Shown here: positions 11,917 through 61,766 of the stretch, piece after piece
Numbering within the stretch: position 1 is the stretch's first letter
Layout: every line of letters starts with the position of its first letter
From: Halorubrum sp. CBA1229
Lineage (GTDB): Archaea > Halobacteriota > Halobacteria > Halobacteriales > Haloferacaceae
NCBI RefSeq assembly: GCF_003721435.2
Contig: NZ_CP054585.1
Span: 620,001 to 684,000 of the forward strand
DNA: 64,000 nucleotides
Direction: 5' to 3'
Notes under the pieces: model-generated
The model's input: only the letters and a program-made list of their open reading frames with translations
Told to the model about the DNA's origin: nothing
Databases searched by the model: none
Position numbers and translations under genes: made by a program

Positions 11917-12270
11917 TGGTTAAAACCCAGCGCGGCGGCGCGCCTCCGAGCGGCCGCCCTCGGCGGTCGCGAGGAGCCCGCGAGGGAGTCGGTGGTCCGG
12001 AGCGAAGCGGAGGACCACCGACGAGGCTGGGGAGGCGTGAGGTGCGGTTGCGGGTGGGACTCAAAGGGGCAGCTGCGAGGCGGGCGCAGGCGACGTAAGC
12101 ACCACAGGGAGCGAGCAACGCGAGCGACCGAGGAGCGCAACGAGCGTGCGCCCGCCTCGAAGCTGGGGCTTTGGAGGAGTTCGCCGTCGATCAGTCGTCA
12201 GCGACGTATAGCCGAGCGGCTGGGCGTATGCAGGCGATCACCGCCGATCCGAGCGAGGTCATTTATAAAC
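11917..12270 (+). repeat. copy A of a structured non-coding repeat family
   Basis: Non-coding element between the start of the PHP gene and the end of the next minus-strand gene. It begins with TTAAAA, then GCGGCGGCGCG. Stem 1 is GTCGGTGGTCC (11988-11998) with GGACCACCGAC (12012-12022). The conserved block GCTGGGGAGGCGTGAGG follows, then GGGACTCAAAGGGGCAG (12056-12072). Stem 2 is CGAGGCGGGCGCA (12076-12088) with TGCGCCCGCCTCG (12147-12159), and CTGGGGCTTTGGAGG (12163-12177) follows it. It ends with TTTATAAA. Small frames inside it exist but are not consistent between copies. Four more copies lie in this window. Confidence 0.8.
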
Positions 12271-14208: not shown

Positions 14209-14562
14209 ATGTCTCTCCTACGCAGGCGGTGACAGACGACCCACCTAAAGCCTCGTTTTTCGCGTCGGCCGTCCGACAGTCGATCGATTTCGGCCGGGAG
14301 GCGGCGCGAGTCACAAGAACACGCTTAAGAGCCCCGACGGCGACAGCACGAACGGGAACAGCACAGCTGCAGATCCGACTCGCCGGGGCCTCTTTCGCCC
14401 GCGGCTTGGGAATGTAGCAGTGCACCGACGCCTCCGGCGTCGCGGCTCGGGCCGATCCGCTCGCGCGGACCGCCCCCTCGGACCCGCTCGACGCGAGCGG
14501 CCGACAGCCGCGCCGCGCGGAGTCGCGGTCACGTTGTGGTTGTGCCGTTCCAATTTCAGATA
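14209..14562. other. gap before rps15: possible long structured leader
   Basis: This 354-bp gap separates the divergent nhaC and rps15 genes. A plus-strand box CTTAAG (14324-14329) predicts a transcript start near 14353, giving rps15 a leader of about 210 bases, unusual where most mRNAs are leaderless. The leader holds three hairpins with 3-base loops: CGACGCC-TCC-GGCGTCG (14426-14442), CCGCTCG-ACG-CGAGCGG (14484-14500) and CCGCG-CCG-CGCGG (14508-14520). No start codon with good context lies in it before 14563. Confidence 0.4.
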
Positions 14563-17436: not shown

Positions 17437-17818
17437 TTTATAAATAGAGACCGTAAGAAGTCGGTGCGAATGCGGTGGCGCGTGCCTCCGAGGCCGCCTC
17501 GCGGCCGAGGAGCGCGCGCGAGGGAGTCGGTCGCCCGGAGCAACGCGGAGGGCGACCGACGAGGCTGGGGAGGCGTGAGGTGCGGGGCGGCGCTGTGCGG
17601 GGTGGGACTCAAAGGGGCAGTCGGGAGGACGGCGCAGGCGACGGAAGCACTGGAGGGAGCGAGCAACGCGAGCGACCGAAGCGCGCAACGAGCGTGCGCC
17701 GTCCTCCCGACTGGGGCTTTGGAGGTGTTCAGCGCCGATCTGTTGTCAACAAAGTATACCCGAGCGGGTGGGGCTTTGGAGGCCGTCACCGACACATCTG
17801 CGATACGCTATTTATAAA
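17437..17818 (+). repeat. copy B of a structured non-coding repeat family (best-preserved)
   Basis: Bounded on both sides by TTTATAAA (17437-17444 and 17811-17818). The body begins GCGGTGGCGCGTGCC at 17471. Stem 1 pairs GTCGGTCGCCC (17526-17536) with GGGCGACCGAC (17550-17560). Stem 2 is perfect over 19 pairs: CAGTCGGGAGGACGGCGCA (17618-17636) with TGCGCCGTCCTCCCGACTG (17695-17713). The conserved blocks GGGACTCAAAGGGGCAG (17604-17620) and CTGGGGCTTTGGAGG (17711-17725) flank that stem, and a second GTGGGGCTTTGGAGG-type block lies at 17768-17782. It sits between convergent genes and breaks none. Confidence 0.85.
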
Positions 17819-21681: not shown

Positions 21682-23429
21682 GCGACGACGGGCCGGGCGC
21701 CCGCGAGGTCGCCCACCGCGTGTTCGCCGCCGAGTTCGACGACGCCTCCCTCTCGTACTCCGAGAGCGACGAGGAGCGCGCCCCGAACTACGTCGTCACG
21801 CCGACCGGCGCGCGCGTGAACCGGCTGTTCGTCGCCGGTGTGCTCACCGAGGTCGAGCGCGTGAACGACGAGACGCGCCGCGGCCGGGTCGTCGATCCCT
21901 CCGGCGCCTTCGTCACCTACGCCGGCCAGTACCAGCCCGAGGCGCAGGCGTTCTTAGAGCGCGCGGACCCGCCGTCGTTCGTCGCGCTCACGGGGAAGGC
22001 GCGCACCTTCGAGCCGGAGGACTCCGACCGCGTGTTCACTTCCGTCCGCCCCGAGAGCCTCAACGAGGTCGACGCCGACACCCGCGACCGCTGGGTCGTC
22101 TCCGCCGCGGAGGCGACGCTCGACCGCCTCGCCGTCTTCGCGAAGTCGCTCGACTCGGACCTCCGCGGCGACGAGCTCCGCGCGGCCCTCGAGTCGGGCG
22201 GCGCGCCCGCGTCGCTGGCGGCGGGAGTCCCGAAGGCGATCGCCCACTACGACACCTCGACGGCGTACGTCGAGGCGGTCCGGCGGCTCGCCGTCGACGC
22301 GCTGGAGCTGATCGCCGGCGACCGCGACGAGGTCCGCCCGCTCGACCTCGCTCCCGACGCGGGCGACGACGCGGCGATCGGCGCGCTCCCTGAGACCGAC
22401 GTAACGATCGAGGCGCCGACCGGAGCCGCGGCGCCGGGGGACGGCGTCGAAGCCGCCCCCGATTCCGAGACCGAGGCGACTGCCGGTGCTGAGGCCGAAA
22501 CGGCCGACGATACCGAGGCCACGGCAGACACTGACACCGAGGCCACGGCAGACACCGGAGCGACTGCGGATCCCGACGCCGAGGCCACGGCAGACACCGG
22601 AGCGACTGCGGATCCCGACGCCGAGGCCACGGCAGACACCGGAGCGACAGCGGATCCCGACGCCGAGGCCACGACAGACACCGGGGCGGCCGCGGCGGTC
22701 GACGCCGGCGGCGACTCCGAATCTGGTGGAACGACCGAGACTGCCGAGGGCGACGCGGTCGACGGCGCCGGGGAGCCCGCAGCGGACGACGGAGACGGCG
22801 GACTCGGCGACTTCGAGACCGGCGGCGACGACCTCGACGCAGCGGACGACATCGGCACCTCCGAGGGAACCCTCGACGCCACCGGGGGAGACGACGACGC
22901 TGTCGTCTCGGCCGAGCCCGACGATGTCGACCCCGACGATGTCGACCCCGACGACATCGACCCCGCGGCCGACGAGATGTACGAGCTCGACGAGGAGGAG
23001 CGCGAGGAGATCGAGTCCGAGTTCGGCACCGACTTCGCGACCGGCTCGGAGGTCGACGAGCCCGGCGAGGCTGACATCGACGTGCCGGACCCAGAGGAGC
23101 TGCAGGAAACGCCCGAGGACGCGGCAGCTACCGACATCGACGCCGACGCTGCCGAGACGGTCGACACGAGCGACGACTCCGCCGGATCGGACGTCGACGA
23201 CGGCGCGGACGAAACACCCGACGAGGCCGCCGACGTCGACCTCGAAAGCGCCGTCATCGACGCGATGGGCGCGCTCGACGACGGCGACGGCGCCGACCGC
23301 GAGGCGGTCGTCGACCGCGTGGTCGCCGAGCACGGCGTCGCCGACGACGACGTGGAGGACGCGATCCAGGACGCGCTGATGAGCGGGAAGTGCTACGAGC
23401 CCGGCGACGGGGTGCTCAAGCCGATCTGA
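21678..23429 (+). CDS. rpap1: RPA-associated protein (RPAP1/RpaB1 type)
   Basis: 583 residues. Residues 1-215 form the conserved COG3390 region: AREVAHRVFAAEFDDASLSYS, an OB fold (VTPTGARVNRLFVAGVLTEVERV...FVALTGKARTF) and a helical part. Residues 240-470 are an extreme acidic, low-complexity linker, with three near-identical 14-residue repeats (TADTGATADPDAEA). A short C-terminal winged-helix-like domain follows (ADREAVVDRVVAEHGVADDDVEDAIQDAL). In Haloferax the RPAP proteins bind their matching RPA. The start (ATG in ATGA with rpa1) and the TGATG overlap with the next gene show tight coupling. Confidence 0.92.
   Translation: MSDDGPGAREVAHRVFAAEFDDASLSYSESDEERAPNYVVTPTGARVNRLFVAGVLTEVERVNDETRRGRVVDPSGAFVTYAGQYQPEAQAFLERADPPSFVALTGKARTFEPEDSDRVFTSVRPESLNEVDADTRDRWVVSAAEATLDRLAVFAKSLDSDLRGDELRAALESGGAPASLAAGVPKAIAHYDTSTAYVEAVRRLAVDALELIAGDRDEVRPLDLAPDAGDDAAIGALPETDVTIEAPTGAAAPGDGVEAAPDSETEATAGAEAETADDTEATADTDTEATADTGATADPDAEATADTGATADPDAEATADTGATADPDAEATTDTGAAAAVDAGGDSESGGTTETAEGDAVDGAGEPAADDGDGGLGDFETGGDDLDAADDIGTSEGTLDATGGDDDAVVSAEPDDVDPDDVDPDDIDPAADEMYELDEEEREEIESEFGTDFATGSEVDEPGEADIDVPDPEELQETPEDAAATDIDADAAETVDTSDDSAGSDVDDGADETPDEAADVDLESAVIDAMGALDDGDGADREAVVDRVVAEHGVADDDVEDAIQDALMSGKCYEPGDGVLKPI
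22539..22685. repeat. 42-bp in-frame repeats in the acidic linker
   Basis: Three 42-bp units start at 22539, 22581 and 22623, with a partial fourth from 22665. They are near-identical at DNA level and encode a 14-residue acidic/Thr/Ala unit in the RPA-associated protein. Copy number probably varies between strains through slippage. The reading frame is kept, so this is not a CRISPR array. Confidence 0.85.
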
Positions 23430-28918: not shown

Positions 28919-29006
28919 TACTACTCTCCGGTCGGACGAGCGCGCACTTGAAGCCGTTGTCGGCGACGGCGACGTGGGGCGGGTGACATGTCAGACAGCG
29001 ACGCTA

Positions 29007-29532
29007 TTTATAAATGAACCGACGGTGCGGTGGCGCGCGCCCGTGAGCGGCCGAAAGGCCGCGAACGGCGCCGCGCGAGGGAGTCGGTCGTCCGGAGCAA
29101 CGCGGAGGACGACCGACAGTGCGAGAGCGAAGCTCTCGCTTGCAACCGGACGTAGTCCGGTGACGAGGCTGGGGAGGCGTGAGGCTGCGGTTGCGGTGCG
29201 GTTCGGGGTGGGACTCAAAGGGGCAGCCGGGAGGGCGACGCACGGCGACGGGAGCAGCGGGGCGCTACGCGCCACGGGCAGCCGGCGGCAAAGCCGCCGG
29301 CGACCCCACAGCGAAGGAGCGGTAGCGACTGAGCGAGGAGCGTGGTTCGAGAGAGCAAAGCTCTCTCGTCATCACGAGACGCCGAAGGCGTCTCGAACGA
29401 CACCGAGCCGCGCGAGTCCTCACGGCTGGGACTTTGGACGTGTTTCCGGTCACAGTGATCGCAACGATCGATCGTCGAGCGACTGGGGGTTTGGCGGTGA
29501 ACACCGACGGTCTGCGATCACTTATTTATAAA
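29007..29532 (+). repeat. copy C of the structured repeat family, with extra hairpin domain
   Basis: Bounded by TTTATAAA at 29007-29014 and 29525-29532. Stem 1 pairs GTCGGTCGTCC (29083-29093) with GGACGACCGAC (29107-29117). GGGACTCAAAGGGGCAG is at 29210-29226 and CTGGGACTTTGGACG at 29426-29440; only the CAGCCG/CGGCTG end of stem 2 pairs clearly. It is longer than copies A, B and E because of inserted perfect hairpins: 29121-29139, 29146-29160, 29281-29301, 29348-29368 and 29375-29395. The last two pairs are shared with copy D. It lies between the mutL start and the 3' end of the ABC ATPase gene. Confidence 0.82.
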
Positions 29533-29591: not shown

Positions 29592-30725
<1,134 letters not shown>

Positions 30726-30904
30726 TTACTGGCAAAGGGTGCTTCCCGCATATTAGTTCTTCGCTGTTTTCGCGATATGTGAGGAATAATCTCATCTTAA
30801 ATGTGTCGGAGGACGAACTCCGACGTGAACCCGCGGGGTGTCCGTCCCGCGATCGCGAAGCGTTCGACGGTACCGACGCGAGTGCCGACGTGACGAGCTA
30901 CCCA

Positions 30905-30953
30905 GATCAACGGGGCCGCCGCGAGGGAGGCGGACGCCGCCGCCCCGGTGATC
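30905..30953. promoter_or_regulatory. imperfect hairpin in the divergent promoter region
   Basis: GATCAACGGGGC pairs with GCCCCGGTGATC, with one mismatch, around an inner CCGCC/GGCGG stem. It lies between the two divergent transporter promoters, upstream of the binding-protein TATA region. It may be a regulator site or the end of a short transcript. Confidence 0.3.
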
Positions 30954-30968
30954 CCAAAAACTAAATGT

Positions 30969-30985
30969 ATGAATATGTAATTCAT
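30969..30985. promoter_or_regulatory. 17-bp inverted repeat before malE-like gene
   Basis: ATGAAT-ATGTA-ATTCAT is a perfect 6-bp inverted repeat with a 5-base spacer, 17 bases before the ATG at 31002 and overlapping the A/T-rich core-promoter position. A site here would block RNA polymerase if a repressor bound it. The binding protein is unknown; it does not match the TrmB motif that I recall. Confidence 0.4.
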
Positions 30986-31001
30986 CGTTTGTTGTAGCCA
31001 C

Positions 31002-32291
31002 ATGAACGAGAAACGCAGAACGCTACTGAAGACGATGGGAGGAAGTACCGCGCTCGCGGCGCTCGCGGGCTGTATCAGCACGGGCGGCGACGGCGGGGAT
31101 GGCGGCGACGGCGGTGACGGCGGTGACGGCGGGTCCAGCGACGGGTCCGACTCCTCGGGCGACGAGAATCAGGGAACCGCGACGCTGTGGACCGACCTGT
31201 CCGACGGCGAGGACGAGGCCATGTCCTCGTACGTCGACGAGTTCGAGTCGGAAACCGGATTCACGATCAACAAGGAGGCGCCCGGCGGCGAGCTCGACCA
31301 GCAGCTCGAGACGGCCATCCCGTCCGGGGAGGGCCCCGACTCGTGGATCTGGGCGCACGACTGGGTCGGTCGGTTCGCGGTCCGCGAGGAGCCGCCGTTC
31401 CTCTACGACGCGAGCGACGACATCGACTCGCTCGGCGCCTACACGGAGACCGCACAGCAGGCGGTCCAGTACGACGGCGCGGTCCACGGGCTCCCGTTCG
31501 CCTCCGAGACCGTCGCCCTGTTCTACAACGAAGATATGGTCGACGAGGCCCCGGAGACCCTCGAGGAGATGGTCTCTACCATGGAGGAGTTCCACGACCC
31601 CGAAAGCGGCGAGTACGGGCTCTCGTACCCCGTCGCCGACCCGTACTTCACCAGCGGGTTCATCCAGGCGTACGGCGGCGACATCTTCGACGAGGAGAAC
31701 CTGGAGGTCACGCTCGATAGCGACGCCTGCAAGCGGGGGATGGACGCGCTCGATACCGTCTCCGACTACGTCCCGGCCGACCCGGGCTACGAGTCGCAGA
31801 TCGTCGCGTTCGCGGACGGCGCCGCCCCGTTCGCGATCAACGGCCCGTGGGAGCTCGCGAACCTCCAGAGCGAGATCGACAACCTCGGAGTCGCGCCGCT
31901 GCCGACGATCGACGGCAACAACCCGCGCACGTACTCCGGGATCCAGACGTTCTACTTCAGCGCCATGCTGAGCGACGCCGACCAGTCGACGGTCGACGCG
32001 ACCACCGGGCTCGCCGAGTGGTACACCACGAACGAGGACGTCATCGAGACCAACGCGGCCGAGCAGGGGTACATCCCTGTGCTCAGCTCCGTGGTCGAGG
32101 ACGGGGACCTCTCGGCGGAGGTCGAGGCGTTCGCCCGACAGGTCGACCACGGCGTCCCGATCCCGACCCATCCCGACATGAACAGCGTCTGGACGCCGCT
32201 GACCGAGGCGCTGACTCGCGTCTTCAACGGCAACCAGGAGAGTGGCCCCGCCCTCGATCAGGCCGCCTCCGAGATCCGGGAGAACCTGTAG
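31002..32291 (+). CDS. malE: maltodextrin-type ABC transporter substrate-binding lipoprotein
   Basis: 429 residues. It starts MNEKRRTLLKTMGGSTALAALAGC, a Tat-style signal (RR) ending in a lipobox with Cys24, so it is exported folded and lipid-anchored. A Gly/Asp/Ser-rich linker follows. The mature part has the MalE-like two-lobe pattern: GTATLWTDLSDGEDEAM, YDGAVHGLPFASETVALFYNEDM and APFAINGPWELANL, the NGPW motif being typical of maltose/maltodextrin binders. It heads the plus-strand unit with two permeases 21 bases and then 4 bases (overlap) apart, and is divergent from the ATPase gene. Sugar specificity is inferred. Confidence 0.88.
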   Translation: MNEKRRTLLKTMGGSTALAALAGCISTGGDGGDGGDGGDGGDGGSSDGSDSSGDENQGTATLWTDLSDGEDEAMSSYVDEFESETGFTINKEAPGGELDQQLETAIPSGEGPDSWIWAHDWVGRFAVREEPPFLYDASDDIDSLGAYTETAQQAVQYDGAVHGLPFASETVALFYNEDMVDEAPETLEEMVSTMEEFHDPESGEYGLSYPVADPYFTSGFIQAYGGDIFDEENLEVTLDSDACKRGMDALDTVSDYVPADPGYESQIVAFADGAAPFAINGPWELANLQSEIDNLGVAPLPTIDGNNPRTYSGIQTFYFSAMLSDADQSTVDATTGLAEWYTTNEDVIETNAAEQGYIPVLSSVVEDGDLSAEVEAFARQVDHGVPIPTHPDMNSVWTPLTEALTRVFNGNQESGPALDQAASEIRENL

Positions 32292-32312
32292 GCGCTTCTC
32301 CACCCAGTTATT

Positions 32313-33308
32313 ATGGCTTCCCCACACACCGGTACCGGCGCGAGCGGCCTAGCGCGGCTCCGAGCAGCGGTCCCGTTCTCTAACCGCGACTGGGGACTGC
32401 TGCTCGTTATCCCCGGCGTGGTCCTGTTCTCCAGCTTCATGCTGTACCCGATCGTCTACCTGTTCTACATCTCGCTGACCGACGCGACGTTCGCCGGGTC
32501 GGTGATCGGGGGCGGCGCCGAGCTGATCGGGCTGGAGAACTACGTGCAGCTGCTCGGCGACTCGCAGTTCTGGACGTCGATGTCGACGACGTGGCTGTTC
32601 GTCGCCGTCTCGCTCGTGATCAAGGTGTTCGTCGCCGTCGGCATCGCGCTCCTGTTGAACCACGCCCGCGTCGTCGGCAAGCGCTACATGCGCGCGGCGG
32701 TGATCGTGCCGCTCGGGTTCCCCGGGATCTTCACGATCACCGTCTGGCGCGGGATGTTCAGCGACGCCCGATTCGGCGTGTTCAACACGATCCTCGGACG
32801 GTACAACGGCGTCATGTCGTCGCTGCCGGCGCCAGAGTTCCTCCTTTTCGACGTCCCGATCGGCTTCCTCAGCGGCCGCTGGGAGGCGTTCTTCGCGTAC
32901 GTCACCACGGAGGTGTGGCTGGCGTACCCGTTCATGGTGATCATCATCGTGAGCGCGCTCCAGGACGTCCCGCGCGAGCTCCACGAGGCGGCGATGGTCG
33001 ACGGGGCGGGACCCCTTCAGCGGTTCCGCACCGTGACGCTGCCCGCGATCAAGCGGCCGGTGCTGTTCGCGTCGATCCTCACCGGCGCGACCTCGTTCCA
33101 GCAGTTCCTGATCCCGTGGGTGTTCAACCAGGGGGGCCCGGCGCGGCAGAACGAGCTGATCATCGTGTACGGCTACCGCGAGGCGATCAGCTTCAACGAG
33201 TTCGGGCTCTCGGCCGCGATCCTCATCGTCGCGATCGCCGTCATCGGCCTCTTCATGTACGCCGCCGTGCGCTACGGCGGCCTCGCCGAGGGGGTGGGTG
33301 ACGAATGA
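32313..33308 (+). CDS. malF: sugar ABC transporter permease, MalF type
   Basis: 331 residues with six membrane helices. The cytoplasmic EAA loop is ELHEAAMVDGAGPLQRFRTVTLPAIKRPVL at about 225-255, where the ATPase docks. N-terminal RDWGLLLVIPGVVLFSSFMLYPIVYLFYISLTD is the first helix of sugar-type permeases. It forms a heterodimer with the next permease, whose start overlaps its stop by 4 bases (ATGA). The binding-protein gene lies 21 bases upstream. Confidence 0.92.
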   Translation: MASPHTGTGASGLARLRAAVPFSNRDWGLLLVIPGVVLFSSFMLYPIVYLFYISLTDATFAGSVIGGGAELIGLENYVQLLGDSQFWTSMSTTWLFVAVSLVIKVFVAVGIALLLNHARVVGKRYMRAAVIVPLGFPGIFTITVWRGMFSDARFGVFNTILGRYNGVMSSLPAPEFLLFDVPIGFLSGRWEAFFAYVTTEVWLAYPFMVIIIVSALQDVPRELHEAAMVDGAGPLQRFRTVTLPAIKRPVLFASILTGATSFQQFLIPWVFNQGGPARQNELIIVYGYREAISFNEFGLSAAILIVAIAVIGLFMYAAVRYGGLAEGVGDE

Positions 33309-34366
33309 GCGCCCTCGGAGCCGTCCTGGCGCTGATCCGCGCGAAGCTCGTCGGACTCGCGACCGCGCCGAAGCGGTTCGCCGTGACGATCCAGCGGGCA
33401 ATCTACGACCTGCGGACCGGCAAGCGCACGCCATGGGACGTCGCCAAGAGCGTGCTGATGACGGCGTTCGGCCTGTCGATGGTGCTGATCCTGTTGTTCC
33501 CGCTGTTCTGGATCTTCACCGCGTCGCTCGCGGAGGGGACCCGGCTGTTCAACACGAGCGGCATCTTCCCCGACCCGACGACGTACAACCTCGACGCCTA
33601 CCGGTGGGTGTTCTTCGAGTCCAACTTCTTCTTCGTCGACGGCGACTGGGGGTACCCCCAGCTCGTCCTCGGCGGGAGCGGGGGACTGGTGAGTTTCCGG
33701 TGGGCCGGAACCGAGACCGGGCCGGGCGCGGTGTTCAACAGCCTCTATCTCGTGAGCGTGACGATCGTCGCCGGCTTCGGGATGATCGTGCCGGCGGCGT
33801 ACGCGTTCTCGCGGCGGAGCTTCGTCGGCCGCAAGCGGATCCTCTACGGCTACGTGCTGTTCACGCAGATCGGCGCCGGCCTCTCGATCGCGACGCTCGT
33901 GGCGCTGTACTCGCTGTTCAGCTCGTACGGGCTGACGAACAACCTGTTCATCCTCGGGCTGTTCTACGCGGCCGGCGCGATCCCCTTCAACACCTGGCTG
34001 CTGAAGACGTACATGGACAACATCCCCGTCTCCTACGAGGAGGCGGCGATGGTCGACGGCGCGAGCTTCCTGGACACGATCCGGGAGGTGATCCTCCCGC
34101 TGACGAAGCCGGGGCTCGCCGTCGTGCTCATCTTCGTCTGGCTCGCCGGGTGGAACGAGTTCATCATCGCGCAGACGCTGCTCTCGCCGGAGAACTACCC
34201 GCTCTCGGTGGAGCTGTACAACCTCGCGACCGAGGGGCGGTTCTCGACGCCGTGGACGCGGTTCGCGGCGTTCGCGAACCTGTTCGCGCTCCCCGTCGCG
34301 ATCGTCTACTTCGCGGCGCAGCGCTCCGTCGAGGACGGCCTCTCGTTCGGCGGGATGGAGGGATAA
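33305..34366 (+). CDS. malG: sugar ABC transporter permease, MalG type
   Basis: 353 residues with six membrane helices after a longer than usual cytoplasmic N-terminus (about 50 residues). The EAA loop is VSYEEAAMVDGASFLDTIREVILPLTKPGLAV. A stretch between helices 1 and 2 (FNTSGIFPDPTTYNLDAYRWVFFES) is an extracytoplasmic loop typical of MalG-like subunits, and a further insert (GDWGYPQLVLGGSGGLVSF) enlarges it. It completes the plus-strand transporter operon. A run of nine T follows at 34421-34429, fitting an archaeal terminator. Confidence 0.92.
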   Translation: MSALGAVLALIRAKLVGLATAPKRFAVTIQRAIYDLRTGKRTPWDVAKSVLMTAFGLSMVLILLFPLFWIFTASLAEGTRLFNTSGIFPDPTTYNLDAYRWVFFESNFFFVDGDWGYPQLVLGGSGGLVSFRWAGTETGPGAVFNSLYLVSVTIVAGFGMIVPAAYAFSRRSFVGRKRILYGYVLFTQIGAGLSIATLVALYSLFSSYGLTNNLFILGLFYAAGAIPFNTWLLKTYMDNIPVSYEEAAMVDGASFLDTIREVILPLTKPGLAVVLIFVWLAGWNEFIIAQTLLSPENYPLSVELYNLATEGRFSTPWTRFAAFANLFALPVAIVYFAAQRSVEDGLSFGGMEG

Positions 34367-34429: not shown

Positions 34430-34482
34430 AAGCGTTTCTCGTTTCGCGCGTTCTCCGAAATTGGTGGCCGACGACAGCTCTG

Positions 34483-34881
34483 CAACGAACACCTCCAAAG
34501 CCCAAGCCGCGAGGACTCGCGCGACTCGCTGTCGTTCGAGACGCCTTCGGCGTCTCGTGATGACGAGAGAGCTTTGCTCTCTCGAACCACGCTCCTCGCT
34601 CAGTCGCTACCGCTCCTTCGCTGTGGGGTCGCCGGCGGCGAAGCCGTCGGCTGCCCGTGGCGCGTAGCGCCACGCTGCTTCCGTCGTCGTGCGTCGTCCT
34701 CGCGACTGCCCCGTTGAGTCCCACCCAACCGCACAGCGACCGCACCTCACCCCTCCCCAGCCTCGCCGCTCGCTCGGGGGCTCCCCCCGGTCGCCCCCGT
34801 CGCTCGCGGCGTCCCTCGCGCGTGCGACTCGCGGCCTGTCGCCGCGCTCGTCGGCACGCGCCGCCGCAGTCGGTTTATAAA
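34483..34881 (-). repeat. copy D of the structured repeat family, minus orientation
   Basis: Reading on the minus strand it begins with TTTATAAA (34874-34881), then GCGGCGGCGCGTGCC. Stem 1 has a quite different sequence (GGGGG with CCCCC flanked by CGCCGC with GCGGCG) yet still folds. Stem 2 pairs CGCGAGGAC and GTCCTCGCG (34508-34516 and 34696-34704). The conserved blocks are at 34706-34722 and 34490-34503. It shares with copy C the extra hairpins at 34537-34557, 34564-34584, 34631-34651 and 34657-34673. It sits between convergent genes. Confidence 0.82.
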
Positions 34882-34910
34882 TAGTGCCCCCAGACGCGGT
34901 CGTTCGACTC

Positions 34911-35942
34911 TCAGTCGTCCGCCGTCGGCGTCGGCGCCTCGCCGCCGAGCCGGGCGCGGTCGTGGTCCGCCTCGAAGTCGAGGTCGGGGCCACGCGCGAC
35001 GATCCCGGAGGGCGTCACGTCCGGGTGGGTCGTGTAGTAGTGCTCCTTGATGTGGCTCATGTTCACCGTCTCGGCGACGCCCGCGGTCTGGTAGAGGTCG
35101 CGGAGGTACGGCCAGAGGTGCTCGTACTGGTGGATGAACTTCCGGTTGCACATGAAGTGGGTGTGGTACACCTGGTCGAACCGCACCAGCGTGGTGAACA
35201 TGCAGATGTCGGCCTCGGTGAGCGAGTCGCCGACGAGATAGCGCCGGTCCGCGAGGTGGTCGTTCCAGTGGTCGAGCGCGCCGAACAGGTCGTCGATCGC
35301 CTCGTCGTAGGCGCCTTGGGACTTCGCGAAGCCGGCGCGGTAGACGCCGTTGTTGACCGGTTCGTAGATCTCGGAGATGACCTCGTCGACGTCCGCGACG
35401 GTCGCCTCGTCGTCGGCGTCGGGCAGCAGCGAGACGTCGTTGCCGAGGTCGTCGAACGCGGTCGAGAGGGTGCGGAGGATCTCGCGGGACTCGTTGTTGA
35501 CGATCGTCTCCTCGTGGGTGTCCCACAACACGGGGACCGTCACGCGACAGGTGGCGTCGGGGTCGGCCTCGACGTACAGCTCGCGGAGGAAGTCGCTGTC
35601 GTGCAGGTGGTCGGGTGTACACCCCTCCTTCTCGGGGGTGAACTGCCAGCCGTCCTCGGCGCGGTACGGGTCCACGACCGAGACGCCGATGGCGTCCTCC
35701 AAGCCGAGCAGCGACCGCGCGAGCAGGGTGCGATGCGCCCACGGACAGGCGTAGGAGACGTACAGGTGGTACCGCCCCGCCTCGGGCTGGAACCGGTCGT
35801 CCGGTTCGGCGTCGACGTGCTCCGGGACGTCGCTGCCGGCGATCCAGTTCCGGAAGGTCGTCTCGCCGCGCTGGAACGAGCCGTCCTCGTCCGTCGCCTC
35901 GTACGTGTCCGTCCGCCACTCGCCGTCGACGAGCTGATTCAT
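34911..35942 (-). CDS. glutathione S-transferase-family protein (ECM4/glutathionyl-hydroquinone reductase type)
   Basis: 343 residues. The thioredoxin-like N-terminal domain carries YHLYVSYACPWAHRTLLARSLLGLEDAIGVSVVDP, with the catalytic CPW motif at about 60-62. The C-terminal alpha domain follows (LVGDSLTEADICMFTTLVRFDQVYHTHFMCNRK). This is the ECM4/YqjG branch, whose bacterial members reduce glutathionyl-hydroquinones through that cysteine. Haloarchaea use gamma-glutamylcysteine in place of glutathione, so the natural thiol is probably that one. A TTATGG box about 26 bases upstream supports the ATG. It is divergent from the FAD oxidase gene. Confidence 0.88.
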   Translation of the reverse strand: MNQLVDGEWRTDTYEATDEDGSFQRGETTFRNWIAGSDVPEHVDAEPDDRFQPEAGRYHLYVSYACPWAHRTLLARSLLGLEDAIGVSVVDPYRAEDGWQFTPEKEGCTPDHLHDSDFLRELYVEADPDATCRVTVPVLWDTHEETIVNNESREILRTLSTAFDDLGNDVSLLPDADDEATVADVDEVISEIYEPVNNGVYRAGFAKSQGAYDEAIDDLFGALDHWNDHLADRRYLVGDSLTEADICMFTTLVRFDQVYHTHFMCNRKFIHQYEHLWPYLRDLYQTAGVAETVNMSHIKEHYYTTHPDVTPSGIVARGPDLDFEADHDRARLGGEAPTPTADD

Positions 35943-61445: not shown

Positions 61446-61766
61446 GAATGACGCCAAAGCCCCAGCCGTTCACTTATAAATGGCCGACCGCGGATCGGCG
61501 GTGAACACCTCCAAAGCCCCAGCCGCGACGACTCGCGTGGCTCGCTGCGCGCTTCAGTCGCTCGCGTTGCTCGCTCCTTGCAGTGCTTGCGTCGCCAAGC
61601 GTCGTCCTCGCGGCTGCCCCTTTGAGTCCCACCCGCCCCGCACGGCAACGCACCTCACGCCTCCCCAGCCTCGTCGCTCACTTTGTTCGCGACTCCCTCG
61701 CGCGTGCTGCTCGGCCGCGAAGCGGCCTCGCAGGCACGCGCCACCGCACCGCCGTTCGTTTATAAA
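61446..61766 (-). repeat. copy E of the structured repeat family, minus orientation
   Basis: On the minus strand it begins with TTTATAAA (61759-61766), then GCGGTGGCGCGTGCC. Stem 1 is short (GTCGC with GCGAC). The conserved blocks GGGACTCAAAGGGGCAG (61614-61630) and CTGGGGCTTTGGAGG (61508-61522) flank stem 2, whose arms are CAGCCGCGACGAC (61520-61532) and GTCGT-CCT-CGCGGCTG (61601-61616). The second CTGGGGCTTTGG-type block is at 61452-61463, beyond a TTATAAAT. It lies between the start of the ArsA-like gene and the end of aroA, and breaks neither. Confidence 0.82.

Follow-up and report, generated by a model that had tools for sequence, protein, structure and literature searches.

In Haloquadratum walsbyi, the small mobile repeats (SMRs) include the SMR-A group (HqIRS42, HqIRS43, and HqIRS55), about 110 bp long with prominent inverted terminal repeats and no target duplication, and SMR-B HqIRS41, with a length of 80 bp (PMC3119063). 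In its passages on these repeats, the same report states that SMRs preferentially enter the palindromes of PATEs and IS605 elements and calls their mobilization enigmatic (PMC3119063). Haloarchaeal small mobile repeats were described in a single species, with an enigmatic movement. A family that spans the order and has one clear anatomy in common (two hairpins with 3-nt loops, constant feet, and interchangeable stems) represents a concrete substrate for testing TnpA or another machine.

We analyzed a window of 64,000 nt from Halorubrum sp. CBA1229, in which copies A to E of a structured repeat, hereafter the host element, are found. Copies C and D carry extra hairpins, and it is probable that these are non-autonomous mobile twin palindromes of 47–64 nt lodged in an older structured repeat. 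In comparison with SMR-A, these units (alpha, beta, gamma, and delta) show two 3-nt-loop hairpins within 47–64 nt instead of a length of about 110 bp. With regard to the sites near terminal palindromes occupied by SMR-A, a beta unit was found in an IS605-like end (L439), and the other sites were IS6 genes, tnpB ends, and a 97-copy element. The host considered here is, in contrast to those of SMRs, a different, RNA-like repeat, and delta is spread throughout the order. We therefore call the units SMR-like and not members of the group, SMR-A being, by its published description, their closest counterpart. The palindromic elements of Rickettsia, short palindromic units inserted in genes and RNAs, keep the reading frame, whereas a beta insertion in an IS6 gene (L441) breaks it. 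REPINs combine two hairpins as one unit, with REP tags and RAYT transposases. The REPINs and REP sequences of bacteria are alike as short non-autonomous palindromic units (PMC3116915), but the units described here nest in other elements. PATEs and IS605 ends share palindromes near the ends and the same archaeal family (PMC3119063), IS605 being additionally characterized by single-stranded transposition, although PATEs lack inverted terminal repeats, whereas delta has near-inverted ends and is inserted in other elements. Within the open-access literature, subscription papers being mostly outside the scope, no account of the host element or of the units was found beyond those of SMRs and PATEs.

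Every hairpin named by the initial annotation of this locus was present in the sequence. In copy C (29023–29456, forward strand), these are located at 29121–29139 (8-bp stem and 3-nt loop), 29145–29161, 29281–29301, 29348–29368, and 29375–29395, and in copy D (34460–34890, reverse strand) at 34537–34557, 34564–34584, 34631–34651 (one mismatch), and 34656–34674. Most coordinates agreed, the exceptions being two hairpins given as 29146–29160 and 34657–34673, each of which is one base longer on either side. Counting as a twin hairpin any pair of perfect hairpins with stems of at least 7 bp, loops of 3–4 nt, and a gap of up to 8 nt, three were found in the window (29121–29161, 29348–29395, and 34537–34584), all within copies C and D, against six pairs in total (mean 0.2, at most one per window) in 30 first-order Markov windows of the same length. 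Perfect stems of at least 8 bp with a 3-nt loop numbered 12 in the window against a simulated mean of 5.1, and seven of the 12 were in C and D. The hairpin density that had been noted as unusual is thus above chance, and simple chance as the source of the hairpins was ruled out by the Markov windows along with the flank control and the whole-genome stem sites presented below.

The same annotation read these hairpins as one extra domain placed inside stem 2 of the core fold, present in two copies and lacking in A, B, and E. The absence from the latter held: copies A (12021–12178, forward, 160.5 bits with the search model R1), B (17559–17726, forward, 165.4 bits), and E (61507–61674, reverse, 173 bits) are short forms with a P3 stem of 111 nt and no twin hairpin or module. 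The single domain, on the other hand, resolved into three separate modules in copy C (alpha, gamma, and delta) and two in copy D (gamma and delta). Copy C is preceded by the TATA-box-like TATTTATAAAT (29005–29015, forward) and begins with the hairpins P1, which starts GCGGTGGCGCGCGCC at a sharp 5′ conservation edge, and P2 (29027–29117), as delimited by conservation among 97 copies and by folding. The alpha module (29118–29164, hairpins 29121–29139 and 29145–29161) follows and ends in GAC. The core box and the long stem P3 span 29163–29441 (R1, 77.1 bits), including the core motif GGGTGGGACTCAAAGGGGC (29206–29224), which forms the 5′ strand of the P3 closing helix, the gamma module (29256–29304, first hairpin with one mismatch and the second at 29281–29301), an apical stem of Watson–Crick dinucleotides alternating with tandem G·A pairs (29309–29341), and the delta module (29342–29401, hairpins 29348–29368 and 29375–29395; 82.9 bits), all on the forward strand. 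On the reverse strand, the core box and P3 of copy D (34491–34766; R1, 79 bits) include delta (34531–34590) and gamma (34628–34676, hairpins 34656–34674 and, with one mismatch, 34631–34651). Only gamma and delta are located in the long 3′ stem P3, and alpha occupies the 3′ foot of P2, the hairpin before it. Delta is identical between C and D across all 60 nt, and in gamma one hairpin is mismatched in C and the other in D. The loop differences reported between C and D partly reflect opposite-strand reading, as on the element's own strand only the loop of the second gamma hairpin differs (AAA in C and TTC in D). Folded as single-stranded DNA, the modules each formed two separate hairpins (z −4.4 to −6.4 for five modules), and the modules retained their own hairpins when a whole copy was folded as RNA (z −7.1).

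The host element comprises 97 copies in the 3.58-Mb genome of two contigs, as counted by the core motif GGGTGGGACTSAAAGGGGC, three mismatches being allowed, a criterion that overlooks decayed copies, of which there are at least two (L012 and L151). All of them are on the 3.22-Mb contig (60 forward and 37 reverse; reversed control, 0), none of the 97 cores being on the second replicon of 0.36 Mb, and at roughly 300–400 nt each they account for an estimated 1% of the chromosome. The layout runs from a sharp 5′ edge, GCGGTGGCGYGYGCC, through P1, P2, and a conserved purine-rich box to P3, the closing helix of which pairs CTCRAAG with CTTYGGAG. Most of the 97 copies are preceded by a TTATAAA-like box, the distance of which from the 5′ edge varies between 10 and 40 nt. 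The P3 alignment (A1) draws on 63 of the 97 copies, in which P3 is short and the spacer standard. The other 34 were set aside because they have inserts, a deviating spacer length, or signs of decay, and every copy with a module in P3 belongs to these 34. In this alignment, 21 of 32 pairs were changed on both sides, and none of 500 shuffles reached any of five measures. The tip of P3 exhibits tandem G·A pairs between Watson–Crick dinucleotides, with at least one such block in 58 of the 63 copies and at least two in 45. Among the non-Watson–Crick cells of the host stems, G·U was found 49 times and A·C five times (one fixed U·G pair excluded), and this tolerance of G·U but not of A·C indicates selection on plus-strand RNA. 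Both the covariation and this strand polarity are those of a structured RNA, and the host element is probably transcribed.

An Rfam scan of the window returned only the S15-Halobacteria ribosomal leader at 14352–14423 (RF03143, 71.9 bits), and a scan of L001, L002, and L042 at E ≤ 5 gave nothing relevant. Fitting no Rfam family, with RNA-type covariation and orthologous positions across Halorubrum, the host element qualifies by itself as a candidate RNA family. Searches with R1 detected it in all 30 sampled Halorubrum genomes and, at E 1e−5 or better, in 112 of 148 genomes and 21 of 28 genera of the family; as 19 candidates were scored per genome, copy numbers from this search are lower bounds. 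In a second search, 12 genomes from other genera, picked for having matched, gave 11–75 matches apiece. According to a home-made gene caller, no copy out of 97 overlaps a gene, and among the 96 with a called downstream gene, 35 are between convergent and 15 between divergent genes. The next gene is on the same strand for 34 of these 96, which speaks against a cis-acting leader of downstream genes, and a virus origin was set aside as no phage match was found. Many copies, as in L196, are followed downstream by tandem units of about 65–75 nt that repeat the 3′ strand of P3 together with a TATA-like box, and one congener has several near-identical such units behind the host element.

Across this genome, the hairpin pairs extend well beyond the two copies to which they had been assigned, as 43 twin hairpins were detected in 29 of the 97 host copies, all 43 with 3-nt loops in both hairpins. 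The flank control of about 361 kb, in which overlapping loci were counted redundantly, had two, one of them inside a decayed host copy. The modules share two 3-nt-loop hairpins, a short linker, a GAC end, and no protein gene, with lengths of 56–64 nt for delta, 49 for gamma, and 47 for alpha. Alpha occupies one fixed site at the foot of P2 in five of the 97 copies. In 10 other copies, beta, a related module, is located on the 5′ side of P3. Eight copies have delta on the 3′ side of P3, namely C, D, five others, and the decayed L012, which agrees with the count of the order-wide delta pattern in this genome. Gamma-type units occupy four or more host positions in both orientations, including P2, the segment joining P1 to P2, the P3 5′ side, and the G·A-stem loop. 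The ends of delta are nearly inverted (5′ GTGGTTCGA; 3′ TCGAACGAC, which reads GTCGTTCGA in reverse, with one mismatch), and the ends of gamma, alpha, and beta have only about three bases in common. Additionally, some stems are found in the first hairpin as well as in the second, and stems behave as exchangeable cassettes between constant feet. Genome-wide, all 19 GAGAGC-stem sites (GAGAGCnnnGCTCTC) were in modules, 18 of them close to a core among the 97 and the last in L012; all 10 beta matches were in loci with an R1 match; and all 13 gamma matches were in host copies or remnants, including L151, by inspection a seeming deleted remnant without R1 match. This confinement to host copies and remnants explains why the hairpins had been read as part of the host.

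Outside this genome, the distribution is a different one. The delta signature GTGGTTCGA-N13-17-TCGTCATCACGA was found in 204 of 392 Halobacteriales genomes and 64 of 95 genera, the reversed-pattern controls giving 0 in every row listed. A blastn search of copy C against plasmids retrieved other haloarchaea, most of them matching the delta stretch only, and the plasmid records presented delta in 22 and beta in 30 (43 places), with no match for gamma and alpha among the plasmids searched. As a regular expression for beta-like units was too narrow, with a single case found, beta was traced by BLAST and by R2, a model trained on delta. Among 30 fetched delta loci, R1 matched 10 with an E-value of 0.01 or better and gave no match in the other 20; trained on Halorubrum, it misses distant homologs, as L422 and L425 appear to be by eye. 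Delta was also observed within an outer stem CCTCGGGGTC...GACCCCGAGG (such as in L397, L398, L404, L406, L420, and L424), in plasmid intergenic DNA, and, by eye, behind a tnpB remnant (L396). Seven of the 30 beta records were inspected by eye, five of which have the unit in IS6-type transposase genes (L440, L441, L443, L444, and L446), on plasmids of Haloferax, Natrinema, Halobellus, and Halostagnicola, and the remaining two in an IS605-like end (L439) and in a host-element homolog (L442). The IS6 identity was established for L443 by NCBIfam (1e−53) and for the other four by shared sequence, by eye. The first IS6 insertion site is empty in L444 and L441, and the second in L443. In L439 and L443, several twin-hairpin modules are stacked side by side, the stack of L439 being within the IS605-like end. 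The initial annotation considered the hairpins an optional domain belonging to the element and named their presence elsewhere as evidence to the contrary; delta and beta do occur outside it.

Association with transposons raises the alternative that the units are immobile relics of IS605 or PATE ends, or of TnpB guide-RNA scaffolds, brought in by deletion or recombination, which we regard as unlikely. The resident IS605 (L394), with a single Y1 transposase gene tnpA and tnpB, has a related twin hairpin upstream of tnpA, which R2 recovered with E 7e−4 as its only match below 0.01 outside the host element among 98 sources (360,774 bases). Together with the module stack in the IS605-like end of L439 and with delta overlapping or adjoining tnpB 3′ ends in L413 and L445 (Pfam OrfB_IS605 and Cas12f1-like_TNB), this speaks for relics. 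However, at the L440/L443 and L441/L444 sites, clean insertions of the unit interrupt IS6 transposase genes and the surroundings showed no IS605 sequence, and the R2 model found no delta-like unit at the tnpB 3′ end of L394, the place of a guide-RNA scaffold. A zinc-ribbon ORF of TnpB type was moreover detected by regular expression in only five of 45 loci (L394, L413, L414, L420, and L445). A TnpB guide RNA (omega RNA) scaffold as the identity of the units was likewise rejected, given the L394 match upstream of tnpA and the IS6 and intergenic placements elsewhere.

The initial proposal, in which some copies of a structured RNA carry the hairpins as an optional domain with a function as a platform for protein binding, appears less likely still. 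The host has strong RNA-type covariation, strand asymmetry, and usually a TATA-like box upstream. Matches of alpha, gamma, beta, and delta in this genome are only in the host element, and alpha, beta, and delta each keep to one fixed site, as a domain would; delta also occupies the same host-element site in other families (L402, L408, and L429), which could mean old inheritance. As gamma and alpha gave no plasmid match, their independence would depend on the many positions of gamma and on analogy. Nevertheless, the domain is largely refuted by the same units at tnpB ends, within transposase genes, and elsewhere outside the element, and two further lines of evidence speak against it. The first concerns base changes in the stems. 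In the alignment of 39 distinct delta modules (A2), the search pattern of which fixed the constant parts and thus partly imposed the flanking invariance, 97.3% of cells were paired and 94 double changes were counted, and none of 500 shuffles reached either value. Half-changed cells in delta had G·U six times and A·C seven times, against 49 and five in the host stems (Fisher P 0.001), these counts being of sequences and not of events. Equal tolerance of G·U and A·C fits a palindrome in double-stranded form, or one strand alone whatever its polarity, and the delta stems lack the strand preference of an RNA, as would be expected for a DNA palindrome.

The second line comes from gain and loss, as orthologous copies differ in modules and only 29 of the 97 copies carry any. 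Copy C is located between mutL and a UgpC/MalK-type ATPase gene, and in 30 loci of this ATPase, our own included, mutL adjoins in 21, the gene at 34911–35942 in seven, and neither in two. The mutL site of 20 congeners had a full-length R1 match above 100 bits in 12, a weaker one in four, and none at E 0.001 in four, some of which show visible host remnants. By eye, the orthologous C sites differ, L195 having delta, L187 an inverted gamma, and most no module. The comparison of long and short forms across genomes hence upheld the optional character of the hairpins, as well as their peripheral insertion at junctions, loops, and a stem foot around a conserved host core fold, and not their belonging to the host as a domain. 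Two filled/empty pairs, L440 against L444 (beta in IS6) and L195 against L201 (delta in host P3), exhibited no target duplication of four bases or more, with a possible overlap of 2–3 bases (AC/GAC). These two comparisons agree with SMR-A in this respect and speak against MITEs, which combine the terminal inverted repeats of a known transposon with a target duplication.

An origin of the palindromes in place, by template switching in replication or hairpin repair, and a spread only by gene conversion between host copies, is very improbable, as constant feet and hairpin pairing that recur order-wide in unrelated hosts are not given by it, even though it agrees with perfect stems and variable loops, with the identity of C and D over delta and the preceding tract, and with an inverted P3 tip in copy c082. 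In that copy (L111), the G·A stem is on the other strand and the outer stem is kept.

Mobile twin palindromes remain the favored reading, the modules being probably mobile as judged from the comparison of loci and genomes. The host that they would have entered, at its loops and junctions, is an older structured repeat of high copy number. IS605 TnpA binds hairpins as single strands, and the two-hairpin shape with constant feet resembles such substrates. The units may move as single-stranded hairpins recognized in trans by an IS605-type Y1 transposase TnpA, which would re-join them into exposed loops of other palindromes; this step is suggested by the agreement of the shape, the related unit beside a resident tnpA, and the lack of target duplication. 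As the link is drawn from one related twin hairpin and from architecture, TnpA as the mobilizer is a speculative possibility. Once in one host copy, modules might spread to further copies through gene conversion, which is suggested by the tract that is identical in C and D despite their differing 5′ halves. On a broader scale, it is conceivable, and worth considering despite its tentative nature, that twin triloop hairpins are order-wide minimal mobile units of Halobacteriales, the mover of which reads the paired-hairpin shape while stems are swappable, and that they home into exposed loops, including those of an undescribed Haloferacaceae RNA family of about a hundred copies, as a safe haven.

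Copies C (forward) and D (reverse) are inverted copies flanking a maltose/glycerol-phosphate-type ABC operon (29592–34366), so that inverted host copies border an operon found in both orientations within the genus. The operon is inverted between the same neighbor genes in all five congeners fetched for their differing order (L433–L437), and L438 has the order of this genome. R1 matched at both junctions of the inverted operon in three of the five (L433, L436, and L437) and at a single junction in L434, whereas L435 had no match at either. Elsewhere in the window, short degenerate direct repeats with steps of 18–42 nt are located within an open reading frame at 22443–22694.
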